The notes under the pieces are model-generated. The model saw nothing but the letters and a program-made list of their open reading frames with translations, was not told where the DNA came from and did no database searches. DNA of 64,000 bases from Panopea generosa. Its lineage: Eukaryota > Mollusca > Bivalvia > Adapedonta > Hiatellidae. The stretch covers positions 12,122,133-12,186,132 of the forward strand of contig CM055907.1 of assembly GCA_029582155.1 (NCBI GenBank), in the 5' to 3' direction. The position numbers were made by a program, and so were the translations under genes. Every line of letters begins with the position of its first letter. The first letter of the stretch is position 1. Shown here one piece after another: positions 6,673 to 60,639 of the stretch.

Positions 6673-9600
6673 GTAACTTATGTTAATGTATCTTTTCTTA
6701 TGTTCAGTTCATACAATAAATATACTTATACATTTTTATATATACAAAGCCATATGAAAAGTGTCTTTAATACAGGAAAGTGCTTTGTAAACCCTTTTAT
6801 AATTATTTAAGTGATTGAGAGTGATTTGAATAAGCTTCTTTGGTCATTGGTGTAAAATAAAGTTTATGTTAAAATATAATATAAGAACATACTCTATCTC
6901 CACCCTTCTTTTCAAAGTTAAACTGAGCCAATGGCTGATCCGCCAACAGTTGGGTCTTGTTTCTATACAGGGGATTAAATATACATAAGAGGCCAGCAGG
7001 GGCCCAAAGAGGATTAATGGGAAGTTGCTCAAATCTTTTTTCAAAAACTGATAATCCAAATTTGTTCATATTTGGTGTAAATCATCTATTTGAACAAGGG
7101 TTTTAAAGGGGCTCTTTTTATTTTAGATTATTTTAAGTCCTTAATATGCTTAATCCATTTAACAACTTTAATATATTTAAACCATACCTAGTTTTTGTTA
7201 TTTTTTGTGGAGGAAGTTTTTATCTGTGTAGAATCATCCTCCTTCCGTAAGCAACTGGCAAACTTTCACACATAAAGTTTTTGAAATGAAAGTCATTAGA
7301 AGACAAACCCTTAGACCAAGGAAGATCGCCACCTTCTTAAAAAGTGGAGATTCTCCATATACTCAGCTGTTTTGGTGAGGTTCTCCATAGACTCAGCTGT
7401 CTAGGTGAGGTTCTCCATAGACTCAGCTGTCTTTGTGAGGTTCTCCATAGACTCAGCTGTCTTGTTGAGGGTTCTTCTTAGACTCAGCTATCTTGGTGAG
7501 GTTCTCCATAGACTCAGCTGTCTTGGTGAGGATTCTCCATAGACTCTGCTGTCTTGGTGAGGGTTCTCCATAGACTCAGCTGTCTTGGTGAGGGTTCTCT
7601 ATAGACTCAGTTGTCTAGGTGAGGGTTCTTTATAGACTCAGCTGTCTTGTTGAGGGTTCTCCATAGACTCAACTGTCTTGTTGAGGGTTCTCCATAGACT
7701 CAGCTGTCTTGTTGAGGGTTCTCCATAGACTCAGCTGTCTTGGTGAGGGTTCTCCATAGACTCAGCTGTCTTGGAGAGGGTTCTTCATAAACTCAGCTGT
7801 CTTGGTGAGGGTTCTCAATAGACTCAGCTGTCTTGGAGAGGGTATCATAAACTCAGCTGTCTTGGTGAGGGTTCTCAATAGACTCAGCTGTCTTGGTGAG
7901 GTTCTCCATAGACTCAGCTGTCTTGGTGAGGGTTCGTTATAGACTTAGCTGTCTTGGTGAGGGTTCTCCATATACTCAGCTGTCTTGGTGAGGGTTCTTC
8001 ATAGACTCAGCTGTCTTGGTGAGGGTTCTCCATATACTCAGCTGTCTTGGTGAGGGTTCTTCATAGACTCAGCTGTCTTGGTGAGGGTTCTCCATAGACT
8101 CAGCTGTCTTGATGAGGTTCTCCATAGACTCAGCTGTCTTGTTGAGGGTTCTCCATAGACTCAGCTGACTTGGTGAGGGTTCTCCATAGACTCAGCTGAC
8201 TTGGTGAGGGTTCTCCATAGACTCAGCTGACTTGTTGAGGGTTCTCCATAGACTCAGCTGACTTGGTGAGGGTTCTCCATAGAATCAGCTGTCTTGTTGA
8301 GGGTTCAAACTCATTTAATATTAAAGCATACCCTATGTTTGTATTCTGTTTTAAAAAAATGTGTATTCTGTTTAAATAGCCTTATGCTTAACTTATCAAA
8401 ATTTTGTTCAGGGGGTGGATGATGTGGATGCTGAAAACATGCCTGAAGTAGTCCAGGTGGCCCTGTATGTCAATGACATTTTCCACTACTACAAGGAACG
8501 AGAGGTAAATGTTCATATAATGTACAGAATATATTTGTTTTATAATATGTACTTATTCATGCTGTCCTTGTGCTCTTTGTTTTATACATCTGCATGCGCT
8601 ATATATACACATTTTCCACCTTGGACTTTACAACATCCTAGTCTAGTTAACTGATCTACCAGTTACTGGTCATGGTTGCATTTCACGAAAAAACTTACGA
8701 TAAAAATCAGTCATAAACGTTAAGTAAGTAATATTCATAATATTTTGCATAGTCATCCGCATGAATTTAATATTGTATTTCCAGAAAACATATGATTTTC
8801 TGAATTATTCAATTCAAAGTTAGGTTCATTTGGATTAATATATTAAATTTTATGAACGATATATTCTTTGCGTTTACGACCTATTTTTATCGTAAGTTGT
8901 TTTGTGAAATGCAACCCATATCTCTACAGGAGTATTGTGATTTAAAATTTTGCCAATTGTATGGCATTTTGGTCAGATTTTAAGGGATCACAACTGTTTT
9001 TAAGCGTCACAGTGTTTGTGTGTGTGTGGTGGAGGGGGAGTAACTTAGGGATCATGGCATGCCTTCGTCTTATTAACCTAGGGAAAGCCCTGTCATAGAA
9101 AGTTTTTACATGTTGTTATATTGTTGAATATATATGTTTCACATCTCTGCAACTTGTGATCAAGGGCCTTTGTACAGAAAAGTACAGCAGTGTTAATGGT
9201 ATTGCAATGATGAAAAGGCACGCCGGTATTAGAATTAAAGTTAGTAATGTTTATATAAACTCCTTTGTAGCTGATGTTCCACGTGGAACCATATCTTCCT
9301 CATCGCAAGATGATCACTGCCAGTATGCGTGCCATCTTGGTAGACTGGCTGGTAGAGGTTCAGGAAAATTTTGAGTTGAATCACGAGACCCTGTACCTGG
9401 CCGTGAAGTTGGTGGACATGTACGTGAGTCATAAAGACATCGCCAAGGAGATTCTACAACTGGTCGGAGCAGCAGCATTGCTTATAGCTTCCAAATTTGA
9501 TGTAACTACCATTTTATCATTTTAAATGAACTACTTCCGAATTAAAGCATCAAAATAGTATACGTAAATAATACACATTTCATTTATAGCTTTACTATGC

Positions 9601-37412: not shown

Positions 37413-37435
37413 TGCTGTCATATTTTTATTATAAA

Positions 37436-38004
37436 CGACTATTGCATACTACAGACAATACTATCTGATTTAATGATACTTTAATATAAACAATTATTGC
37501 ATACAACAGACAAAACTATCTGATTTAATGATACTTTATTATTAACAATTATTGATACTTTAATATAAACAATTATTGCATACAACAGACAATACTATCT
37601 GATTTAACGATACTTTATAATTAACGATTTTTGCATACAACAGACAATACTATCTGATTTAATGATACTTTATTATTAACGATTATTGCATACAACAGAC
37701 AATACTATCTGAATTAATGATACTTTATTATTAACGATTATTGCATACAACAGACAATACTATCTGATTTAATGATACTTTATTATTAACGAGTATTGCA
37801 TACAACAGACAATACTATCTGATTTAATGATACTTTATTATAAACGATTATTACATACAACAGACAATACTCTCTGATTTAATGATACTTTATTATTAAC
37901 GATTATTGCATACAACAGACAATACTATCTGATTTAATGATACTTTATTATAAACGATTATTACATACAACAGACAATACTATCTGATGTAATGTTACTT
38001 TAGG
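37436..38004 (+). repeat. 55-bp minisatellite, about 10 copies
   Basis: Unit contains CTATCTGATTTAATGATACT then TTATTATTAACGATTATTGC. The CTG of CTATCTGATT falls at 37465, 37520, 37599, 37654, 37709, 37764, 37819, 37874, 37929 and 37984: exact 55-bp steps apart from one 79-bp step containing a partial extra unit. Confidence 0.9.
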
Positions 38005-38067: not shown

Positions 38068-38758
38068 CAACAATGATGTATCAAGCCACACTAGCACCAA
38101 TTTGCACCAAGCCACACCGGCACAGGATTGTACCAAGCTCACCAGCATCGGTTTGTACCAAGCCACACCGGCTACGGATTGTACCAAGCTTCACCAGCAC
38201 CGGATTTTACCAAACCACACCGGCACCTGTTTGTACCAAGCTTCACCAGCAGCGGTTTGTACTAAGCCACACTAGCACCGGATTGTACTAAGTCACACCA
38301 GCACCGGTTTGTACCAAGCCACATCGGCACCGGATTGCACAAAGTCCCACCGGCACCGGATTTTACCAAGCCGCAATCGCAATGGTTTGTACCAAGCCAC
38401 ACGGGCATTGGTTAATTCCAAGCCACACTGGCACCGTTTTGTACCAAGCCGCACAGGCATCGGTTTGTACCAGGCCCCACCAGCACCAGTTTGTACCAAG
38501 CCAATGGTTTGTACCAAGCCGTTTTGTACTAAGCAACACCAGCACCGGATTGTACTAAGTCGCACCAGCACCTGATTGTACCAAGCCCCACAAGCACCGG
38601 TTTGTGACAAGCCCCACCAGCACCGGACTGTACCAAGCCGCATCAGCACTATTTTGTACCAAGCCACACCAGCACCGGTTTGTACCAAGCCCCACCAGCA
38701 CCGGTTTGTACCAAGCCCCACCAGCACCGGTTTGTACCAAGCCACATCAGCACCGCTT
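38068..38758 (+). repeat. 26-bp minisatellite, about 26 copies
   Basis: Unit CACCAGCACCGGTTTGTACC plus AAGCCA. 26 is not a multiple of 3, so three units make a 78-bp, 26-codon super-period, which is why both strands and several frames stay open for 60-160 codons. No gene is implied. Confidence 0.9.
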
Positions 38759-46568: not shown

Positions 46569-47170
46569 TCGTCGTCGTTTTCGTTGTTGTCATCGTCGTC
46601 GTCGTAGACGTTGTCGTCGTAGACGTTGACGTCGTCATCGTCGTCGTTGTCATCGTCGTCGTTACCGTTGTCGTCGTTGTCCTCGTCGTCCTCGTCGTTG
46701 CCGTTCCCGTCGTCATTGTTTTCGTTGTCGTTTTTCGTTAGTGTCATAGTCGTCGGCGTTGTCGTTTTCGTTATTGTCGTCGTCGTTGCCATTGTCGTTG
46801 GAGTTGTCACTATCGTTATTGTCACTGTCGTTGTTGTCGTCGTTGTTGTCGTAGTTGTCGTTGTTGTCATCGTCGTTGTTGTTGTCGTCGTCGTTGCCAT
46901 TGTCGATGTAGTTGTCACTATCGTTATTGTCACTGTCGTTGTTGTTGTCGTTGTTGTCATCGTTGTCCTTGTCGTCGTCGTCGTCGTTGTCGTTGTAGTT
47001 GTCACTATCGTTATTGTCACTGTCGTTGTTGTTGTGATTGTTGTCGTTGGTGTCATCGTCGTCGTTGCCATTGCCGTTGTTGTCATCGTCGTCGCCGTCG
47101 TTGTCGTTGTAGTTGTCACTATCGTTATTGTCACTGTCGTTGTTGTTGTCATCGTCGTCGTTGTCTTTGT
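46569..47170 (+). repeat. GTC/GTT trinucleotide array with higher-order repeats
   Basis: About 600 bp of GTC, GTT and GTA triplets. GTTGTCACTATCGTTATTG plus TCACTGTCGTTGTT recurs at about 46803, 46910, 46997 and 47112, so blocks of 87-115 bp have been copied. Open frames of 167-213 codons on both strands are poly-Val/poly-Thr by-products. Confidence 0.95.
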
Positions 47171-47584
47171 TTTGAACAAATATTATAAATTCCCTACTAT
47201 TCATGTTGCTCCACACTCCAACACAAATATGCCCTCCCGTCCATATCCCTATAATGCTAAAACATAAATAAAAGAAAAATAATGTATATAAAATACCGTG
47301 TAGGGGGCCAACCGTTGAGAGCGTGTTTTTGTAACAAACTACGGTAGCTGATCTATGGCACGTCTATTTATCGCGGTTTTAATTTATACAGGGCTATTGA
47401 ATATGATAAAGACGGATCGAATGTATATTAAATACACGCACATATCAATGGCTTTAAATCAGAGTCGCTGTTGGGATATCCAGGTCAATGGTGTGTCTCA
47501 CGGAATACTAAATTCTGCTTAAGTCATACTTCGGTATGTGCAACGGTTGTATGTTTAACTGTTTAAACTTATTTATTTTTACTT
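47171..47584. other. Non-coding stretch
   Basis: No feature recognised. Confidence 0.4.
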
Positions 47585-50345: not shown

Positions 50346-51537
50346 TTCACACAAACAACTGCGTTTCAGGGATAATCACTTGTAACTAGTACATGTTGCT
50401 TTTTTCATATACATGTACATACAAATATGTGCCTTAGGTGAAAAAAAAACAACACCAAAATTAAAGCGTAATATCTCTGTGCTGTGAGGCAGACATTTTA
50501 CGACTCTTATTTACAACTTTCAATAATAAAATAGGTCACGTTTGCATGGGCATATTTATTTAGTTAATATTTAATGACAAGTTTCTGTACTGACAGCCAA
50601 TTTAATTGTTCGTATCTTTCGACATGATTATATTGGCCAATATTTGTTAATACTTTTATTATTAAATATTCAGCTAAGGAAAACAATAATTTCTATACGC
50701 ACCGCAAACGTTTAAAAAGCCGCGTGTTTGCTCAAGTTTACGCCACCGATACCTCAAATAATTTTAATTTAAATATGTTGACAGAAAAAATAGACTAGAC
50801 AACACTACCTCCGGATAAAAGGGTTCATTGCGAGAAAAGAACGCATTCAAGAAAAAAATATAGCAGACCAGGTTGTATCGAGTCTGTTCATGACGGGTAT
50901 TGAAACATGCCGGTATTGAACTCCCCCCCCCCCCCCCCCCCCCCCTGGCCTGGACACCGGCCCAAGTGGTGTTCTATTCTCGGACAACACGAAATCGAGC
51001 CCCTTGATTCCAAGGAATCAGAAATAATTCCAACGTTTAATGAGGGACACTTGCGGTCTCCAAAATGGACCATGTTTATTTTGTGTTTTTTCTCTTGCGA
51101 CATGATCACATCAACTCCTCCGTCCGCAGGACCAAGAGTAAGAGTGACCCGCACGGGCTTATGGCAATATATATTAGCAGGGTTTCTAAAATCATCAAAC
51201 TTTTGGAACTAAACTCAGAATTTGCGAATTTGAAATACTTTTTATAGCAAAATCTTTAGTTAAAATGAGTCGGGTTTTTTTTTTACATTTTCTGATGATG
51301 TGTCATTGATATTGTTTGTTTGTGTAGGGAAATATAAAGTATAATATAAAATAACAAAAATTCAGATTTCAGACTCAATATTTCGATGAATCTATGTTCA
51401 GCTGTTTTTACTATGCTGCAACACATGTATTCAAATTATGTTTGTATGCCACTACAGTTAGCGGAGTGTTATACCACAAAGGTCACGTGTGTTGGAACTG
51501 ACCAGCTGTTTTGTCGGATGAGATGTGGGTATACTGG
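50346..51537. other. Non-coding stretch with a 23-base C run
   Basis: C23 at 50923-50945. No supported gene; opposite-strand short frames at 50888-51247 are unsupported. Confidence 0.45.
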
Positions 51538-51682
51538 GCTGCGTTCAGCTCTCCGTTAACTTTTGCTGCCTGTTTCCCTAATAGTATCGCGTACTGCGTG
51601 CTAATTTAAGGTTGAACCAGTGTCCAGGAAAATATGTTAGCTGACGTTATCAAACGATTAACCGAACTGAACGCAACTCTGG
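51538..51682. mobile_element. MITE-like element with ~23-bp inverted ends
   Basis: GGCTGCGTTCAGCTCTCCGT faces GATTAACCGAACTGAACGCA in inverted orientation with several mismatches. About 145 bp, non-coding. Target duplication not clear. Confidence 0.5.
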
Positions 51683-52350
51683 TTTTATTTTTCTGAAGAA
51701 AATAGGTAGGTGGTGGGTGGGGGCTGGCGAAAAAGTACCACCAACAAAACTTCAAAATAGCTTTTTTACTAGTAGATGTTCATCTGTACAAAGAAAAACG
51801 CAGAAGAAAAGGTATGTATATTTGCATGTCATGACATGTGTGTGAACATGATTTCAAATGGACCAGTCTGTTAAAACATATATACAATAAATTAAAATAT
51901 CTACACTGCGTAAGCCTAACCGTCAGAAAGAACCAAACTGGTGGACAAAACTGAGGCAAACAAATAATTAATATTACACTGAAATCTATGTTTCGTCTAT
52001 TTTCATTCAATGTAATATTAAAAAAGATTTAGCCAGAAAAACAATATGCCATCGGTCTGCTCCTAACAAGAGAGTGACATGGTATGACTGTGATAATAAA
52101 TGCTCAAAGTGTGAGTGGTACAGGTAAGACGTGCGCCTGTCACTCGACAGGTCTAACGTTCGAGACTGCCTAGCGATATTTTTGTTGATAAATGTTTATA
52201 AACAAATTCAAGGTATTCGTATTATTATTTTTATCTTCATTTAAATAAAGTTATAAATGTATATACATTCACTTAAACATATTTTCTTTTTTTAATCTTA
52301 TTTGTGAAGGCAGCTGTCATCAAGGAGATTAAGTAAATAGTGGAAGTCAG
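51683..52350. other. Non-coding stretch with a tRNA-like fragment
   Basis: Near 52110-52175, GTGGTACAGGTAAGACGTGC and AACGTTCGAGACTGCC look like weak A and B boxes. A TAG at 52338 blocks the frame of the next gene upstream, so its earlier exons, if any, are unknown. Confidence 0.35.
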
Positions 52351-52873
52351 TGCACTTGTATCGCACAAGTAGAAATGGTTATCCTAAGTGTACAAGAGAC
52401 GTTGACCGCATCCTTCAAGATGGTACTGACCTGTTTTCATCAATATCAAGCCAGGGACACTACTTGCTTATTAACGAGTTACCTGCAACTGTACACATTG
52501 GAAACGATGTTTTAGAATTAAATTTGCGTGTGCCAAGAAGCGGGATGATGTCTCAAAGTACGAATGATTCTGAGTCACAGAGTTATAGCATCACGTCAGC
52601 TTTGCAGCAATGCTTCGGAGATTCGAGTGGAGCTTTCTTGACAATAGGAAATTCAGGGTCAACCATTGGAATCAAGCAAGTGGGTAACGGTGCCTTTATT
52701 GCTATGGATTCACATTGCCGAGATGATCAAGGCATGTGTTGGCCAGATTGAAAAGCTGTTGTCTTAAAATTATCGACATTAATAGATCTGTCTAATTATG
52801 TTAGAGATATGACGAAATTGATTTTAATGAACGATATGCAGTTTGAAGTAACACCGGTTTCTATCAGAAAAGG
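52351..52873 (+). pseudogene. First recognised segment: protease-like domain joined to the hAT gene
   Basis: Reads YLLINELPATVHIGND ... CFGDSSGAFLTIGN ... FIAMDSHCRDDQGMCWPD, TGA, then KAVVLKLSTLIDLSNYV in the same frame. The order Cys-rich strand, Asp-x-His (DSH at 52707-52715) and R-D recalls cysteine-protease-like domains seen in many mollusc proteins; the exact family is not assigned. The TGA at 52749-52751 replaces what is probably a Gly codon (GGA), a single-base change. It joins the zinc-finger exon through GTAAAT / TTTTTTCAG, a phase-2 junction. Confidence 0.6.
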
Positions 52874-52961
52874 GTAAATACTATAAGTCTTGTCATTTCT
52901 ATTAATTGTAAATGAGCTGATTTATTTATTTTCTCGGTAATAAATGTGACAGGAATATAAA

Positions 52962-52991
52962 TATATATATAATATAATATATATATATATA
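52962..52991 (+). repeat. (AT)n microsatellite
   Basis: Imperfect TATATA run in an intron of the hAT-like gene. Confidence 0.8.
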
Positions 52992-53363
52992 AGGAGACAC
53001 ATTACGAACAGTCTCAGACACACACACATACAGATTTACTGCGGGCGGCGGTGGGGCGTCGCCAAGGTCCATTGCATAGCACACAAGGGAGGCAACTTAC
53101 TGTACATCTAAATAAAGAAGTGTTCAACCTACGACATATGTTTATACAATTACACAATGACTCGCAAATGGTACAAGGCATATGCTAAATTAACATACAC
53201 ACACTAAATAACAATTATATCAGATCGGATCTAGATAGACACAGAGACACAGAAGTATGACGGATATTTTCAGACGCAATGAATAAAGAATTAAAATATT
53301 ACGTTATTTATATATAAAGATTATGTATTACTTATACTTTATCACTTGACTATATTTTTTCAG

Positions 53364-53475
53364 TTCGGATGGTAGCGATGCAACTAGCACTGACAAGGTT
53401 ACAGTTGAAACTTGCGAAGATCTATATGACCTGCCAGGACAAAGTGGAAACTTGGATGATACGGGGAATCAAGAG
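53364..53475 (+). pseudogene. Linker exon of the hAT-like gene
   Basis: GSDGSDATSTDKVTVETCED ... DDTGNQE. Open, phase-matched on both sides. Confidence 0.6.
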
Positions 53476-55811
53476 GTAAAGAAGCTACAACAATTCCGTC
53501 CATTCATATTGGAGATATCAATTTGACTAGTTTAATGATTTCCGAAGTTTGATAAAAGTATTTTATAGTTGAAAAACAAAAATATCTATCATAATGATAT
53601 GTATGTAGAGTCAACCTCTACAATGATATTTCAGGGAATACGTGATGATCAACAACATGGGGTTCAAACTTCATCTCTGGATATAAAGAATTATGACCCG
53701 AAGAATGCTTCAGATGCAGAAAAGTATAGGCTCGTTCAAGAGAGCGAACTAGTGATTAATTTCACATTTCCGGCAAGACTATACAAAGGCAAACGAAAGA
53801 AGTCCAGACTAATGAAACGATTTTGTATCAGGGAATGGTTTACGAGATTCACATTCATATCATACTCAAAACTTGATGATGGGTTATACTGTTCAACTTG
53901 CCTGTTATTTCCAGACACAGCGCACAGACGTTGTAATAAGTTCATCACTGAACCTTTCTCCAACTGGAAGGATGCAGCAGACGATATGACGAGCCATTCG
54001 GCGCCGTTGCACCACCAAGATTTAATGACAAGATTTAAATGCTTTAAGACGACGTTCACACACCCTTCAACTAGAATCGACGTAACGATGACAAGTGAAA
54101 ATGAAGCAAAGATCGATCGCACATAATCGAAGAATACTGCAATCTATATTACATACCTTAGTGTTTTGTGGCAGACAGGGAATAGCATTTAGATCACATC
54201 GTGATAATGATTCATCATGTGACAGCAGTCTTAATATGTGTAAATTTAACTTATAAAATTTCGAGTAAATGCAGGTGACAAAGTGCAAGAAGAACACATG
54301 AACACATGCGCCAAAAATGCATTATACATTTCCAAAACATCACGTATGAGTTCTTGCTTTGTGCTAAACAGTATATACAAAACACAATTGTAGAAGAGGT
54401 CAAAGTCCGAGACATTGGTCCTTTCTTTGGATATCAGTGTGATGAAGTAACAGACAGCAGCCACTGGGAACAACTAGGTCTTGTCCTTAGTTACAGTACT
54501 ACAGGTGGAAAACCAGTTGAACTATTGTTGGAGCTTATTGCTTGCAACGAAATAACTGGTGAAGCAATTCGCAATAACATTATAACTTCGTTAACAAATG
54601 TAGGCCTCGATACTCAACTTTGCCGATCTCAGACAATGGACGGCGCCGGTAATATGGCAGGGAAGAATCTTGGCTGTACTGCGACGTTCGAAAGACACTC
54701 ACCGAGGGCAGTTTAACACTACTGTTCAAGTCACGACCTTAATTTGGTATTATGCAAAAGTTGCCAGGTGAAGGAAGTTCACATCATGCTGGATGCTCTT
54801 AAACAACTGGGGTTATTTTTAAGTATTCTCCGAAACGAGGCAGGTGACTTGAAGAAGCAATTGATGAGGTAAATAAGAAAAAGGAATGCAGCCAACAAGT
54901 TAAGAAGAATAAGTTCAAACTGTTTTGTGAGACAAGATGGGTCGAAAAGCATACATGTCTGGACGATTTCCAGGAAATGTATGAAGCGCTTTTAATATGC
55001 TTTGATACCATATCTGTTGTCGAGCGGGGTTGGGACACAAAGGCAGTAATGGATGCCAATGGGCTCTTAAAACGTATAACGGATGCCAGTTTCATTATAT
55101 GTTTTCAAACAGTTCATACTTATTCCGGGTACTTCATTGGATTGAGTAGAAAGCTCCAAGGCTCTTCACTTGATGTAATTCAGGCATATGATATGGTAGA
55201 GAATGTCAAAACTGTCATAACTGAAGCAAGAAACGATGAAAGTAAATATGATAAAGTGTATACAAAGGCCAAAGAAATGCCTGACGTTGCAAACATGTCA
55301 TCTCTTGAGCCACCTAGGCGATGTGGAAGGCAGACACAAAGAAATAACGCCCCTTCATCTACCCCAGAAGAATATTATAAGCGAGCAATATACTTATCTT
55401 TTGTGGATTTCTTAGTCATTCAAGTCAGTATGAGGTTTGGGAGTTTGTCAAAACATGTAGTTCGGGCCCTTTGTATCATACCAAAGAATCATGATTTGAT
55501 CAACGAAAAAAACATTGATGCAATTATTGAGTACTATGTGGAAGACATGCCTGCACCAACAACTTTCCAACAGGTACTGACGTTGTGGAAACACTTATGG
55601 AATGGTCGAGAAGAAAAGCCATCAACGATCCAGGAAACACTTTCTAGTGAAAGAACATGCAGGTTGATGTACCCAAATATATTTATTTCTGCTGACGTCG
55701 GTAACGTCAAGTAGCGTAGAAAGAGCAAACTCGTCGTTGAAGTACATAAAGAACAAATTAAGAAGTACTATGGGAGAAGATCGCTTCAATGCACTCGTGT
55801 TTATGTATGTT

Positions 55812-58800
55812 CATAAAGACATACCCATTGTCATAGACTCTACTGTACATAAAGACATACCCATTGTCATAGACTCAACTGTACATAAAGACATACCCAT
55901 TGTCATAGACTCTACTGTAGATAAAGACATACCAATTGTCATAGACTCAACTGTACATAAAGACATACCCATTGTCATATACTCTACTGTACATAATGAC
56001 ATACCCATTGTCATAGACTCAACTGTACATAAAGACATACCCATTGTCATAGACTCTACTGTAGATAAAGACATACCCATCGTCATAGACTCTACTGTAC
56101 ATAAAGACATACCCATTATCATAGACTCTACTGTAGATAAAGACATACCCATTGTCATAGACTCTACTGTACATAAAGACATACCCATTGTCATAGACTC
56201 AACTGTACATAAAGACATACCCATTGTCATAAGACTCTACTGTAGATAAAGACATACCATTGTCATAGACTCTACTGAAGATAAAGAAATACCCATTGTC
56301 ATAGACTCTACTGTAGATAAAGACATACCCATTGTCATAGACTCTACTGTAGATAAAGACATACCCATTGTCATAGACTCAATTGTAGATAAAGACATAC
56401 CCATTGTCATAGACTCAACTGTAGATAAAGACATACCCATTGTCATAGACTCTACTGTAGATAAAGACATACCCATTGTCATAGACTCAACTGTAGATAA
56501 AGACATACCCATTGTCCTAGACTCTGCTGTAGATAAAGACATACCCATTGTCATAGACTCAACTGTAGATAAAGACATACCCATTGTCATATACTCTACT
56601 GTACATAAAGACATACCCATTGTCATAGACTCAACTGTAGATAAAGACATACCCATTGTCATAGACTCAACTGTAGATAAAGACATACCCATTGTCATAG
56701 ACTCTACTGTAGATAAAGACATACCCATTGTCATAGACTCTACTGAAGATAATGACATACCAATTGTCATTGACTCAACTGTAGATAAAGACATACCCAT
56801 TGTCATAGACTCTACTGTACATAAATACATACCCATTGTCATAGACTCTACTGTAGATAAAGACATACCAATTGTCATAGACTCAACTGTAGATAAAGAC
56901 ATATCCATTGTCATATACTCTACTGTACATAAAGGCATACCCATTGTCATAGACTCAACTGTAGATAAAGAAAAACCCATTGTCATAGACTCAACTGTAG
57001 ATAAAGACATACCCATTGTCATAGACTTTACAGTAGATAAAGACATACCGATTGTCATAGACTCTACTGTAGATAAAGACATACCCATTGTCATAGACTC
57101 AACTGTAGATAAAGACATACCCATTGTCATAGACTCTACTGTACATAAAGACATACCCATTGTCATAGACTCAACTGTAGATAAAGACATACCCATTGTC
57201 ATAGACTCAACTGTACTTAACGACATACCCATTGTCATAGACTCTACTGTAGATAAAGACATACCCATTGTCATAGACACTACTGTAGATAAAGACATAC
57301 CCATTGTCATAGACCCTACTGTTCATAAAGACATACCCATTGTCATAGACTCTACTGTACATAAAGACATACCCATTGTCATACACTCTACTGTAGATAA
57401 AGACATACCCATTGTCATAGACTTTATTGTAGATAAAGACATACCCATTGTCATAGACTCTACTGTAGATAAAGACATACCCATTGTCATAGACTCTACT
57501 GTACATAAAGACATACCCATTGTCATAGACTCTACTGTAGATAATGACATACCGATTGTCATAGACTCAACTGTACATAAAGACATACCCATTGTCATAG
57601 ACTCTACTGTACATAAAGACATACCCATTGTCATAGACTCTACTGTAGATAAAGAAATACCCATTGTCATAGACTCTACTGTAGATAAAGACATACCCAT
57701 TGTCATATACTCTACTGTACTGAAAGACATACCCATTGTCATAGACTCTACTGTAGATAAAGACATACCCATTGTCATAGACTCAACTGTTGATAAAGAC
57801 ATACCCATTGTCATAGACTCTACAGTAGATAAAGACATACCCATTGTCATAGACTCTACTGTAGATAAAGACATACCCATTGTCATAGATTCAACTGTAG
57901 ATAAAGACATACCCATTGTCATAGACTCTACTGTACATAAAGACATACCCATTGTCATAGACTCAACTGTAGATAAAAACATACCCATTGTCATAGACTC
58001 TACTGTAGATAAAGACATACCCATTGTCATAGACTCAACTGTAGATAAAGACATACCCATTGTCATAGACTTTTCTGTAGATAAAGACATACCCATTGTC
58101 ATAGACTCTACTGTAGATAAAGACATACCCATTGTCATAGACTCAACTGTACATAAAAACATACCCATTGTCATAGATTCAACTGTAGATAAAGACATAC
58201 CCATTGTCATAGACTCTACTGTAGATAAAGACATACCCATTGTCATAGACTCTGTTGTAAATATGTATGTACATAACGACATACCCATTGTCATAGACTC
58301 TGTTGTAAATATGTATGTACATAACAACATACCCATTGACATAGACTCTACTGTACATAAAGACATACCCATTGTCATAGACTCTGCTGTACATAAAGAC
58401 ATACCCATTGTCATAGACTCTACTGTAGATAAAGACATACCCATTGTCATAGACTCAACTGTAGATAAAGACATACCTATTGTCATAGACTCTGTTGTGA
58501 ATATGTATGTACATAATGACATACCCATTGTCATAAACTCTATTGTAGATATGTATGTACACAAAGACATACCCATTGACATAGACTCTGTTGTAGATAT
58601 GTATGTACATAAAGACATACCCATTGACATAGACTCTGTTGTAGATATGTATGTACATTAAGACATACCCATTGACAAAGACTCTATTGTAGATATGTAT
58701 GTACATAAAGACATACCAATTGTCATACACTCTATTGTAGATACGCATGTACATAAAGACGTACCCATTGACATAGACTCTGTTGTAGATATGTATGTAC

Positions 58801-58892
58801 ATAAAGACATACCCATTGACATAGACTCTATTGTAGATATGTATGTACATAAAGACTTACCCATTGTCATAGACTCTATTGTAGATATGTAT
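55812..58892 (+). repeat. In-frame 12/16-codon array inside the hAT C-terminus, about 82 copies
   Basis: 72 units of 36 bp and 10 of 48 bp. The 36-bp unit encodes HKDIPIVIDSTV or DKDIPIVIDSTV; the 48-bp unit encodes DMYVHKDIPIDIDSVV. 68 short units run from 55812 to 58259, two long units follow (58260-58355), then four short and eight long. The frame is held throughout, apart from a compensated +1/-1 pair near 56231 and 56257 and one nonsense (AAA to TAA) at 58659-58661. Minus-strand open frames of 357 and 435 codons through the array are by-products. Confidence 0.93.
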
Positions 58893-58943
58893 GTCAGAAG
58901 ACATCCAAAGAAGATGGTTCTGTTAAATCCCTTATCAGCATGA
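58893..58943 (+). pseudogene. Terminal codons of the hAT-like protein after the array
   Basis: VRRHPKKMVLLNPLSA then TGA at 58941-58943. This is the normal C-terminal end of the family, still in frame with 55737-55811. Confidence 0.75.
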
Positions 58944-59029
58944 AATACTGACTGAGAAGTTACTTGTACACATCTAATCGGAATACTTGTATTAAGCATT
59001 CCCATGGAAAATCCTATGTTCAATCTGCG

Positions 59030-59049
59030 CCCCCCCCCCCCCCCCCCCC
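59030..59049 (+). repeat. 20-base C run
   Basis: C20 followed by ACTAACATCAATTCCTGGAT, similar to sequence near the G19 at 42474. Confidence 0.95.
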
Positions 59050-60639
59050 ACTAACATCAATTCCTGGATCTGCACCTGAATATGACGTTATTTTGAGACG
59101 TATGATGATTCAGTTACGGAAAATTATGCCCGATTTTGTTTTTCTCGTTCTTTATAGTGATAGAAGTGATATGAGACATTAATGTTAAAAACAACAACAT
59201 TTTTCTGGGTTATGTAATAAAAAGAATCTTACATGTGTAAGGCAAAACTAATAAAATACTCGTTAGAGCCTCGCATAATGTAGCTTTGCCACCTTATTGA
59301 GACAGACATTCAAAGATTAATGAAATAATTACTAAATTAGTAATGGAATTCAGCCGTGTATATTGACTTCCAGATCTCTGTAATTAAGCCACTGGCACCA
59401 CACAAGAAATCTCAAAGAAAAATTCTAAATAATTTATACCAATTATTATATTTCTGTCCATTTCCACTAGTGACTTCGAACTGAATTTAAAGGGTTGTTG
59501 TATTTTGTGCGTGGGTGTGTATGTTGGTGCCTGTGTTTTTATTTTTCTACAAAGCAATCTTATTATATTACAATGTCATATTGATGTTAGTTGATCTTTC
59601 ACACGAAGAATCATCAATCGAATTGATATCTCTGTCAACCACGACGAATTCTTATCTCGATTGTTTAAAAAAATAAATTTTGATTTGATTTCACGGATTA
59701 AGGAGATCCCGTATTGATCGCCATCTATTGCGGATTCCAATCTCCGAATAACAATATCTCCACGAAACGGAAACATCACGCAGGTATTCATAAATCATGA
59801 ACGCCATTGTTAGAGATGGAAATATGATATGAATAAAAATCAGAAACACCCCAGCGAGATATGAATAAAATATAGACTTCGCATCATGCAAGACAGAAAA
59901 TTGTATGGAAATCAATCAAATCCACTTAATACGGTCATGTAATAGTAGAACCAATGTGTGCATATGGCTGGAGATTATCTAGAACCTAGTATTCAAATTA
60001 CTGAACTAAACGCTTATTCCTTTCTTCTATATCTTTAGTATTTTATATCTTTTTCTAGTACGCATATCTAATACAGCTATAGCCCTTTATATATTTCTCT
60101 TTATATGTGTACCTGATTTGTATTATTATTTTCAAATTATATTCTATCCTCCTTTTTTTTTTAGTAATTATCAAGTTTGATTGATCAGCGTATCAATGTA
60201 GATGTAGAACTACTAGTCTAGTATAGTATAAAAAAACAACATAATATTACAGTAATAGCTGTACTATATACCATAATCATATATAACTTATAAGAAATTG
60301 TTAGGTATCGTCCGTTAGTATTTACCTGGCATGAATATATACATGATTTTTCCGTGTACATCTGTAAATTTCAGTATTTTCGGTGTCCGAACGTATATAG
60401 TGATATCACTGGATAGTACTGTTAATAAGCCGGTACTAATACACTATAATATCGGCAGCACACCGCATTTACGAATAGTTGTACGGAGAAAGCGTAATCG
60501 CTCGAGCATATTGGCGAAGATTAATGAGTGCCAGGTAAACTCTAACCCAAAATAAGAAACTATTGAAATATTTAATACAAAAACAAAAATACTCAAAAAA
60601 AAAAAGAGACTGATAAACAGGTTACTATAGTAACGGAGA
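59050..60639. other. Non-coding stretch
   Basis: No gene recognised. Short overlapping frames near 59576-59915 are unsupported. Confidence 0.4.

Follow-up and report, generated by a model that had tools for sequence, protein, structure and literature searches.

A 16-codon end segment of a hAT-type transposase gene, probably copied 82-fold by ordinary slips in DNA copying, with sister copies that suggest how repeat arrays begin

In Panopea generosa, a 48-bp segment (16 codons) close to the 3′ end of a hAT-type transposase gene stands 82 times head to tail in the stretch of DNA analyzed here (64,000 nucleotides, called the window), and the copying probably went through ordinary slips of DNA copying. 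We hold with considerable confidence that the array is a neutral minisatellite that grew from this segment in the four steps set out below. Sister copies of the element, with one, four and 16 units of the segment, suggest how repeat arrays begin. What is unusual is the size of the unit and of the array, and the survival of states with 1, 4, 16 and 82 units within one transposition burst.

The array and its host element

The element, the recognizable pieces of its gene and the parts of the array are as follows.

51737..59078, + strand: fragment of a hAT-type DNA transposon with the 3′ end ...GATCTGCACCTG, delimited by DNA alignment to relatives
54279..54713, + strand: DUF4371-like transposase piece, in the frame of the array (Pfam E 3.8e-7, 30.7 bits vs. 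a cut-off of 32.1)
54848..55711, + strand: transposase piece, an open stretch of 288 aa in a frame other than the array's (at least 135 scored genome matches)
55698..55802, + strand: C-terminal hAT dimerization piece around SSVERANSSLKYIKNKLRSTMGEDRFNALVF (weak Pfam match, E 0.025, 14.8 bits vs. a cut-off of 21.4)
55803..58886, + strand: tandem array of 82 units, from TRF and fuzzy cutting
55818..58229, + strand: 36-bp part of the array, units 1-67 in the core register GACATACCC..., including one unit of 37 and one of 35 bp
58230..58886, + strand: 3′ edge of the array, with units at first mixed and then all of 48 bp, the ancestral form; the 48-bp unit also occurs in the relatives C18 and C12a
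58887..58943, + strand: remainder of the gene downstream of the array, translating to MYVRRHPKKMVLLNPLSA-stop, single in relatives

Fuzzy cutting divides the 3084 bp of the array into 82 head-to-tail units: 69 of 36 bp (DIPIVIDSTVDK), 11 of 48 bp (MYVHKDIPIDIDSIVD-like), one of 37 and one of 35 bp. A preliminary description of this DNA had claimed about 82 copies of a 16-codon segment, and the count agrees; the peptides that it gave for the flanks are likewise recovered by translation. In the core register the 36-bp form comprises units 1-67 and 70-73, and the 48-bp form units 68, 69 and 74-82. TRF reports the region as 73.8 copies of 36 bp (55813-58493) and 15.1 copies of 48 bp (58220-58894). 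Chance is ruled out as the source of the array, since the 69 36-bp units show a mean mutual identity of 93.6%. No higher-order repeat emerged when units were compared at lags of 1-20: identities were 0.929-0.942, and shuffling gave a mean of 0.936 (sd 0.0025), with lag 6 (0.942) high and lag 18 (0.929) low, each by about 2.6 sd.

The same description held that the flanking frame is kept. In overall register this is so, as the frame upstream of the array agrees with that downstream, but inside the array the frame is broken by a +1/-1 pair at about 56230-56260, and TAA stops stand in frame at 56247 and 58659, ahead of the final TGA at 58941.

That the length of the array is an artefact of assembly appears very improbable. 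Long arrays can be mis-sized, but the units here differ from one another and are interspersed, no N is seen in the stretch, and two further loci carry shorter arrays. The existence of the array in the window is safe, and 82 units is its length as assembled.

The window holds other tandem arrays at 7351-8306, 37425-38002, 38077-38755 and 46569-47171 (units of 31, 55 and 26 bp, and TCGTCG-like units), and the summed TRF rows cover about 7.6 kb of its 64 kb, the hAT array included.

In hAT transposases a DUF4371 domain is paired with a C-terminal Dimer_Tnp_hAT domain. The two corresponding pieces in the window both score under the Pfam cut-offs, the first slightly, while two distantly related copies of the gene exceed the cut-off for each domain (L047, DUF4371 1.9e-19 and Dimer_Tnp_hAT 2.6e-8; L038, 7.8e-12 and 2.4e-8). 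On these domain matches the element is likely a member of the hAT superfamily, as had been proposed. These two relatives have open frames of 708 and 560 codons and carry the corresponding tail once (by eye). Many more distant transposase relatives are present in the genome (L047 and L038 among them), some with open frames of 500-1000 codons.

The 3′ end, ...GCACCTG, is recognizable in all but one of the 11 loci with alignment in the 3′ region (10 of 11, the window included); the exception is C1. Alignment to relatives begins at 51737-51756 in five of them. A counterpart of the 3′ end was sought as a 5′ terminal repeat in seven copies and was absent at up to two mismatches; a look-alike seen by eye in C12a, CAAGGGCGGATACAG, fails this threshold. 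The 8 bp past the 3′ end, taken as a possible target-site duplication, do not recur exactly anywhere within 51001-53600, and the search found no 5′ end of the element.

As the preliminary description had it, the element is dead. Every close copy matching the main transposase piece carries a stop in one or more of its matched parts, the open piece of the window excepted, and the transposase pieces of the window lie in differing frames.

Two further observations concern the element outside the repeat. Its 5′ half (51756-53587) is conserved between copies and contains an open stretch of 136 codons (52341-52751) with no Pfam match above cut-off; the element may carry a second gene here. A long C homopolymer (59029-59049) lies just inside the 3′ end, and several relatives have C-rich tracts at the corresponding place.

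Relatives with one, four and 16 units, and the proposed birth of the array

The relatives were compared within one genome of 1.47 Gb, in which genome-search counts for element and unit are lower bounds. Besides the window, 11 family loci were extracted and oriented, and one of the 12 matches (C12:13110328) was left out of the comparison. The C-terminal segment is kept in 10 of the 11; C5 is without alignment in the C-terminal part. It is present as 16 units of about 48 bp in C18 and as four units, one of them lengthened to 60 bp, in C12a. It is single in the close relatives C12b, C12c, C9, C10, C7a, C7b and C1, and it occurs once in the distant relative C4 (about 69% identical). When C12b/C12c and C7a/C7b are counted once each, their flanks being duplicated too, and C5 and C4 are set aside, eight independent insertions keep the segment, the window included: five have it singly and three have 4, 16 and 82 units. 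At the threshold used, the 3′ flanks of the window copy, C18 and C12a show no mutual similarity. C12b and C12c (L015 and L020) are a duplicated pair of copies whose 5′ half runs in the opposite orientation to the 3′ end of the element.

A comparison of unit copy number among hAT relatives in the genome, as suggested earlier, thus finds 1, 4, 16 or 82 units at the homologous site, and the relatives that carry the segment once speak for the earlier proposal of an array born in place from 16 codons. A functional copy with the same long array was not among them: the other arrays have 16 and four units and lie in copies with stops.

All 71 matches found to the 36-bp form are at the window locus; the unit overall has at least 107 matches, and the reversed control gave none in either search. 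Among the unit matches listed, all are in ten family loci. Three arrays were found, with 82, 16 and 4 units, and all are inside the element. Minisatellites consist of head-to-tail units of roughly 10-100 bp. Their arrays run up to about 100 copies (PMC6947457), and 82 units of 36/48 bp fit both in unit size and in copy number. Classical satellite DNA, with very long arrays at many loci, was considered and rejected, given these three arrays inside the element. The earlier suggestion of satellite birth is supported for one locus but overstated in its noun: because the 36-bp form is found at one locus, minisatellite is the better fit.

A rival account is capture, in which the element would have taken up a satellite that was already there, as has been suggested for miDNA4, a MITE of Xenopus. 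In its favor, tandem arrays are numerous at the six array-hit loci examined, and two of the element's relatives are situated within or next to arrays of this kind. Against capture, the unit belongs to the gene itself, being its C-terminal segment, and is single in relatives, and the unit matches listed all fall within the family, with no free array outside the element. We consider capture extremely unlikely.

Weak matches of the array to other arrays in the genome (67–72% identity) were also rejected as kin; TRF at four loci (L011-L014) reports arrays whose units, of 33, 34, 38 and 37 bp among others, differ in sequence from the present one. The C18 copy lies between two blocks of a similar but different minisatellite (L009 1-437 and 5555-7883, unit GGTATTGTATAACGC...), and next to the C12a copy stands yet another with a TAAGAATGTCATACACTGTTG-like unit (L010 2275-4463). 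It is as if these two elements had inserted into existing arrays.

In C12b and C12c, which represent one duplicated pair, the single segment is bounded by two copies of TATGTATG, 8 bp long and exactly 48 bp apart. Slippage between short repeats requires a direct repeat of 5–10 bp flanking a single-copy unit, and such a repeat is present here; the single-copy state in C12b/C12c is the progenitor that the short-repeat slippage model predicts. C1 keeps 7 bp of the repeat at 48 bp, and C10 has all 8 bp of the pair at a spacing of 40 after a loss of 8 bp between ACATA copies (by eye). No such pair borders the segment in C9, C7a and C7b, where it was lost or never present. At random segment borders in two element copies (C9 and C10), identity of at least 8 bp arises in about 0.03%. 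Two counterweights should be noted. Direct repeats of 8 bp are about as common in C9 (14) as in shuffles (mean 11.8), so that the repeat explains the borders and not why this site was struck; and the exact repeat of 8 bp spaced at 48 bp occurs in just two of the seven single-copy loci, which are one duplicated pair.

Other small changes in the segment conform to the same pattern. In C12a 12 bp are duplicated between GACATA copies, by eye a second slip of the same type. The change from 48 to 36 bp removed 12 bp between GTAGAT and GTACAT, and each of the two joined forms is frequent: 46 of the 69 36-bp units have G at that site, and 23 have C.

The following series would account for the array. 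In a first step, slippage or unequal exchange between the two TATGTATG copies would have duplicated the segment in a progenitor of the kind observed. Next, as the shared variants described below suggest, a short array may already have been in the element when it inserted at more than one place. In the window copy, loss of 12 bp between the two near-repeats would then have produced the 36-bp unit, the product that is seen. Finally, slippage or unequal exchange would have spread this unit to about 70 copies here, in keeping with the pattern of the array, and left the more diverged 48-bp units at its 3′ edge. Such growth would require no protein function.

The divergence of the units bears on the last step. 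Within the window the 36-bp units differ by 6.4% in mean pairwise comparison against 8.8% for the 48-bp edge units, and this greater likeness fits a later spread of the 36-bp form. A stronger claim, that the 36-bp growth is younger than the insertion, was given up: it came from a first figure of 2.1% (two common sites omitted) against a branch of 4.3% for the window copy, and it fails like for like, as the 36-bp units and those of C18 differ by 3.9 and 4.0% from consensus and by 6.4 and 6.7% pairwise. By this measure the 36-bp part is no younger than the C18 array. Over the first 33 bp, differences within the arrays are 6.7% (36-bp part of the window) and 6.3% (C18), and between the two they reach 14.3%; over the same length the C12a units are nearly as near to C18 as to one another.

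Neutral growth, and one birth or several

Among the 69 36-bp units 31 different variants occur, of which 23 are nonsynonymous and 8 synonymous, against a neutral expectation of about 75:24 (percent); with 31 variants power is limited and weak selection could be missed. In the flanking gene, changes private to one copy fall evenly on codon positions 1/2/3 (main transposase piece, 45/50/47; DUF4371 piece, 32/27/22; first piece, 27/30/28). From these two patterns in the sequence we favor neutral growth over selected protein change, the side to which the preliminary description leaned while leaving the question open.

It is highly unlikely that the repeat reflects selection on the protein or its domestication, as in a new repeat protein. 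Such a reading could draw on unit lengths that are multiples of 3, on an open stretch of 803 aa and on an AlphaFold2 model that gives a 240-aa piece a repeated beta structure with high confidence (mean pLDDT 88.9). The variants, few as 31 are for such a purpose, nevertheless show the pattern expected without selection, and no purifying selection on the encoded repeat was detected in them; the array contains in-frame stops and the frameshift pair, and the upstream gene pieces are in different frames. As to the model, the antisense translation scores higher (pLDDT 91.9), and a beta-solenoid-like structure was dropped on this control. Confident but unrealistic beta-solenoids for repeats are described as a fault of AlphaFold2 (PMC11795689). 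A Pfam match of the array to LED_rpt (2.8e-5, 24 bits vs. a cut-off of 59) was set aside as fortuitous, the query being repetitive.

Neutral growth leaves the number of births to be considered. The flank tree is star-like, with inner branches that are short and mostly weakly supported, as after a burst, and the three array carriers form no supported clade; forcing them into one is disfavored, not rejected, by the AU test (p-AU 0.07). (C4 was excluded from the branch-length trees and the AU test; the variant tables exclude the 60-bp unit of C12a, the 49-bp unit of C18, and the 37-bp, 35-bp and last 48-bp units of the window.)

C12a and C18 share four of the five variants in the C12a array (p = 5e-4) and, judged by eye at the two variant sites that are commonest, open with the same two unit types in the same order. 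Together with their dissimilar flanks, this indicates that an element carrying a short array probably moved by transposition; gene conversion or recurrent change could also account for the sharing. Six flank variants are private to C12a and C18, and these add little, since other pairs share as many (C5 and the window, 10; C18 and C9, 6). For the kinship of the window copy to the other arrays the evidence is mixed: its 36-bp units have three of three variants in common with C12a (p 0.02) and five of 10 with C18 (p 0.13), and its 48-bp units one of five with C12a (p 0.45) and three of 16 with C18 (p 0.25).

It is possible, if on the whole doubtful, that the three arrays were born independently, the duplication-prone TATGTATG pair having given rise to duplications on two or three occasions in separate insertions. 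The star-like tree with its AU result, the few variants that the 48-bp units of the window share, the half shared by its 36-bp units with C18 and the unexceptional number of flank variants in C12a and C18 all point that way; the array variants and unit order common to C12a and C18, and the complete sharing between C12a and the 36-bp units of the window, point the other way. On present sequence comparisons we judge the chances about even that the transposon carried a young, unstable array in its transposase gene and so seeded minisatellites of four, 16 and 82 units on three chromosomes. If it did, either the transposase tolerated insertions of 16 residues behind the dimerization region or another copy supplied the transposase.

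Comparison with known systems

Transposon-derived minisatellites, and their birth between short direct repeats, are already known (PMC6947457, PMC3389668). Birth by slippage between short flanking repeats was put forward by Haber and Louis (1998) and by Taylor and Breden (2000), as cited there. The present case agrees with such minisatellites in the direct repeat of 5–10 bp that flanks the unit and in later growth by slippage, conversion or unequal exchange; it differs in that the single-copy state and arrays of four and 16 units survive in one genome, inside a transposase gene.

Human minisatellites derived from Alu (Jurka and Gentles; PMC3389668) likewise arose from a transposon segment amplified between short direct repeats. 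Alu is a non-coding SINE, whereas here the source is a coding part of a DNA transposon.

Among DNA transposons, the Xenopus miDNA4, a Tc1/mariner MITE with an internal satellite (Scalvenzi and Pollet; PMC12628747), also has one monomer or a variable array inside the copies of one transposon, with flanking microhomology of at least 5 bp. It is a MITE with a captured repeat, whereas the unit here is the element's own coding segment. Tetris, a foldback transposon of Drosophila virilis, similarly supplies an emerging satellite (PMC4079207), from foldback element repeats rather than from a transposase C-terminus.

In the open-licence literature no report was found of a long repeat array within the transposase gene of a hAT element, and the nearest case is hobo, a Drosophila hAT element with variable tandem TPE repeats (3, 5 or 7) in its transposase frame (PMC4807377, which also cites work tying hobo repeat number to activity). 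In both, tandem repeats of variable number lie in the frame of a hAT transposase and are carried by transposition. The hobo unit has three residues (Thr-Pro-Glu), few copies and live elements; here the units are of 16 and 12 codons, number up to 82, and stand in dead elements. If the transposon did carry a young array, coding transposons would be both birthplace and vehicle of minisatellites, with the TPE repeats of hobo as a small-scale precedent.

In closing, the first duplication of a minisatellite usually has to be inferred because its single-copy ancestor is usually lost. Here a transposition burst provided several copies of the starting segment at nearly one time, and the states with 1, 4, 16 and 82 units amount to a natural replicate experiment on birth, growth and change of register (48 to 36 bp). 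Extended to other transposon families of this repeat-rich genome, such a comparison could estimate the rates at which minisatellites are born.
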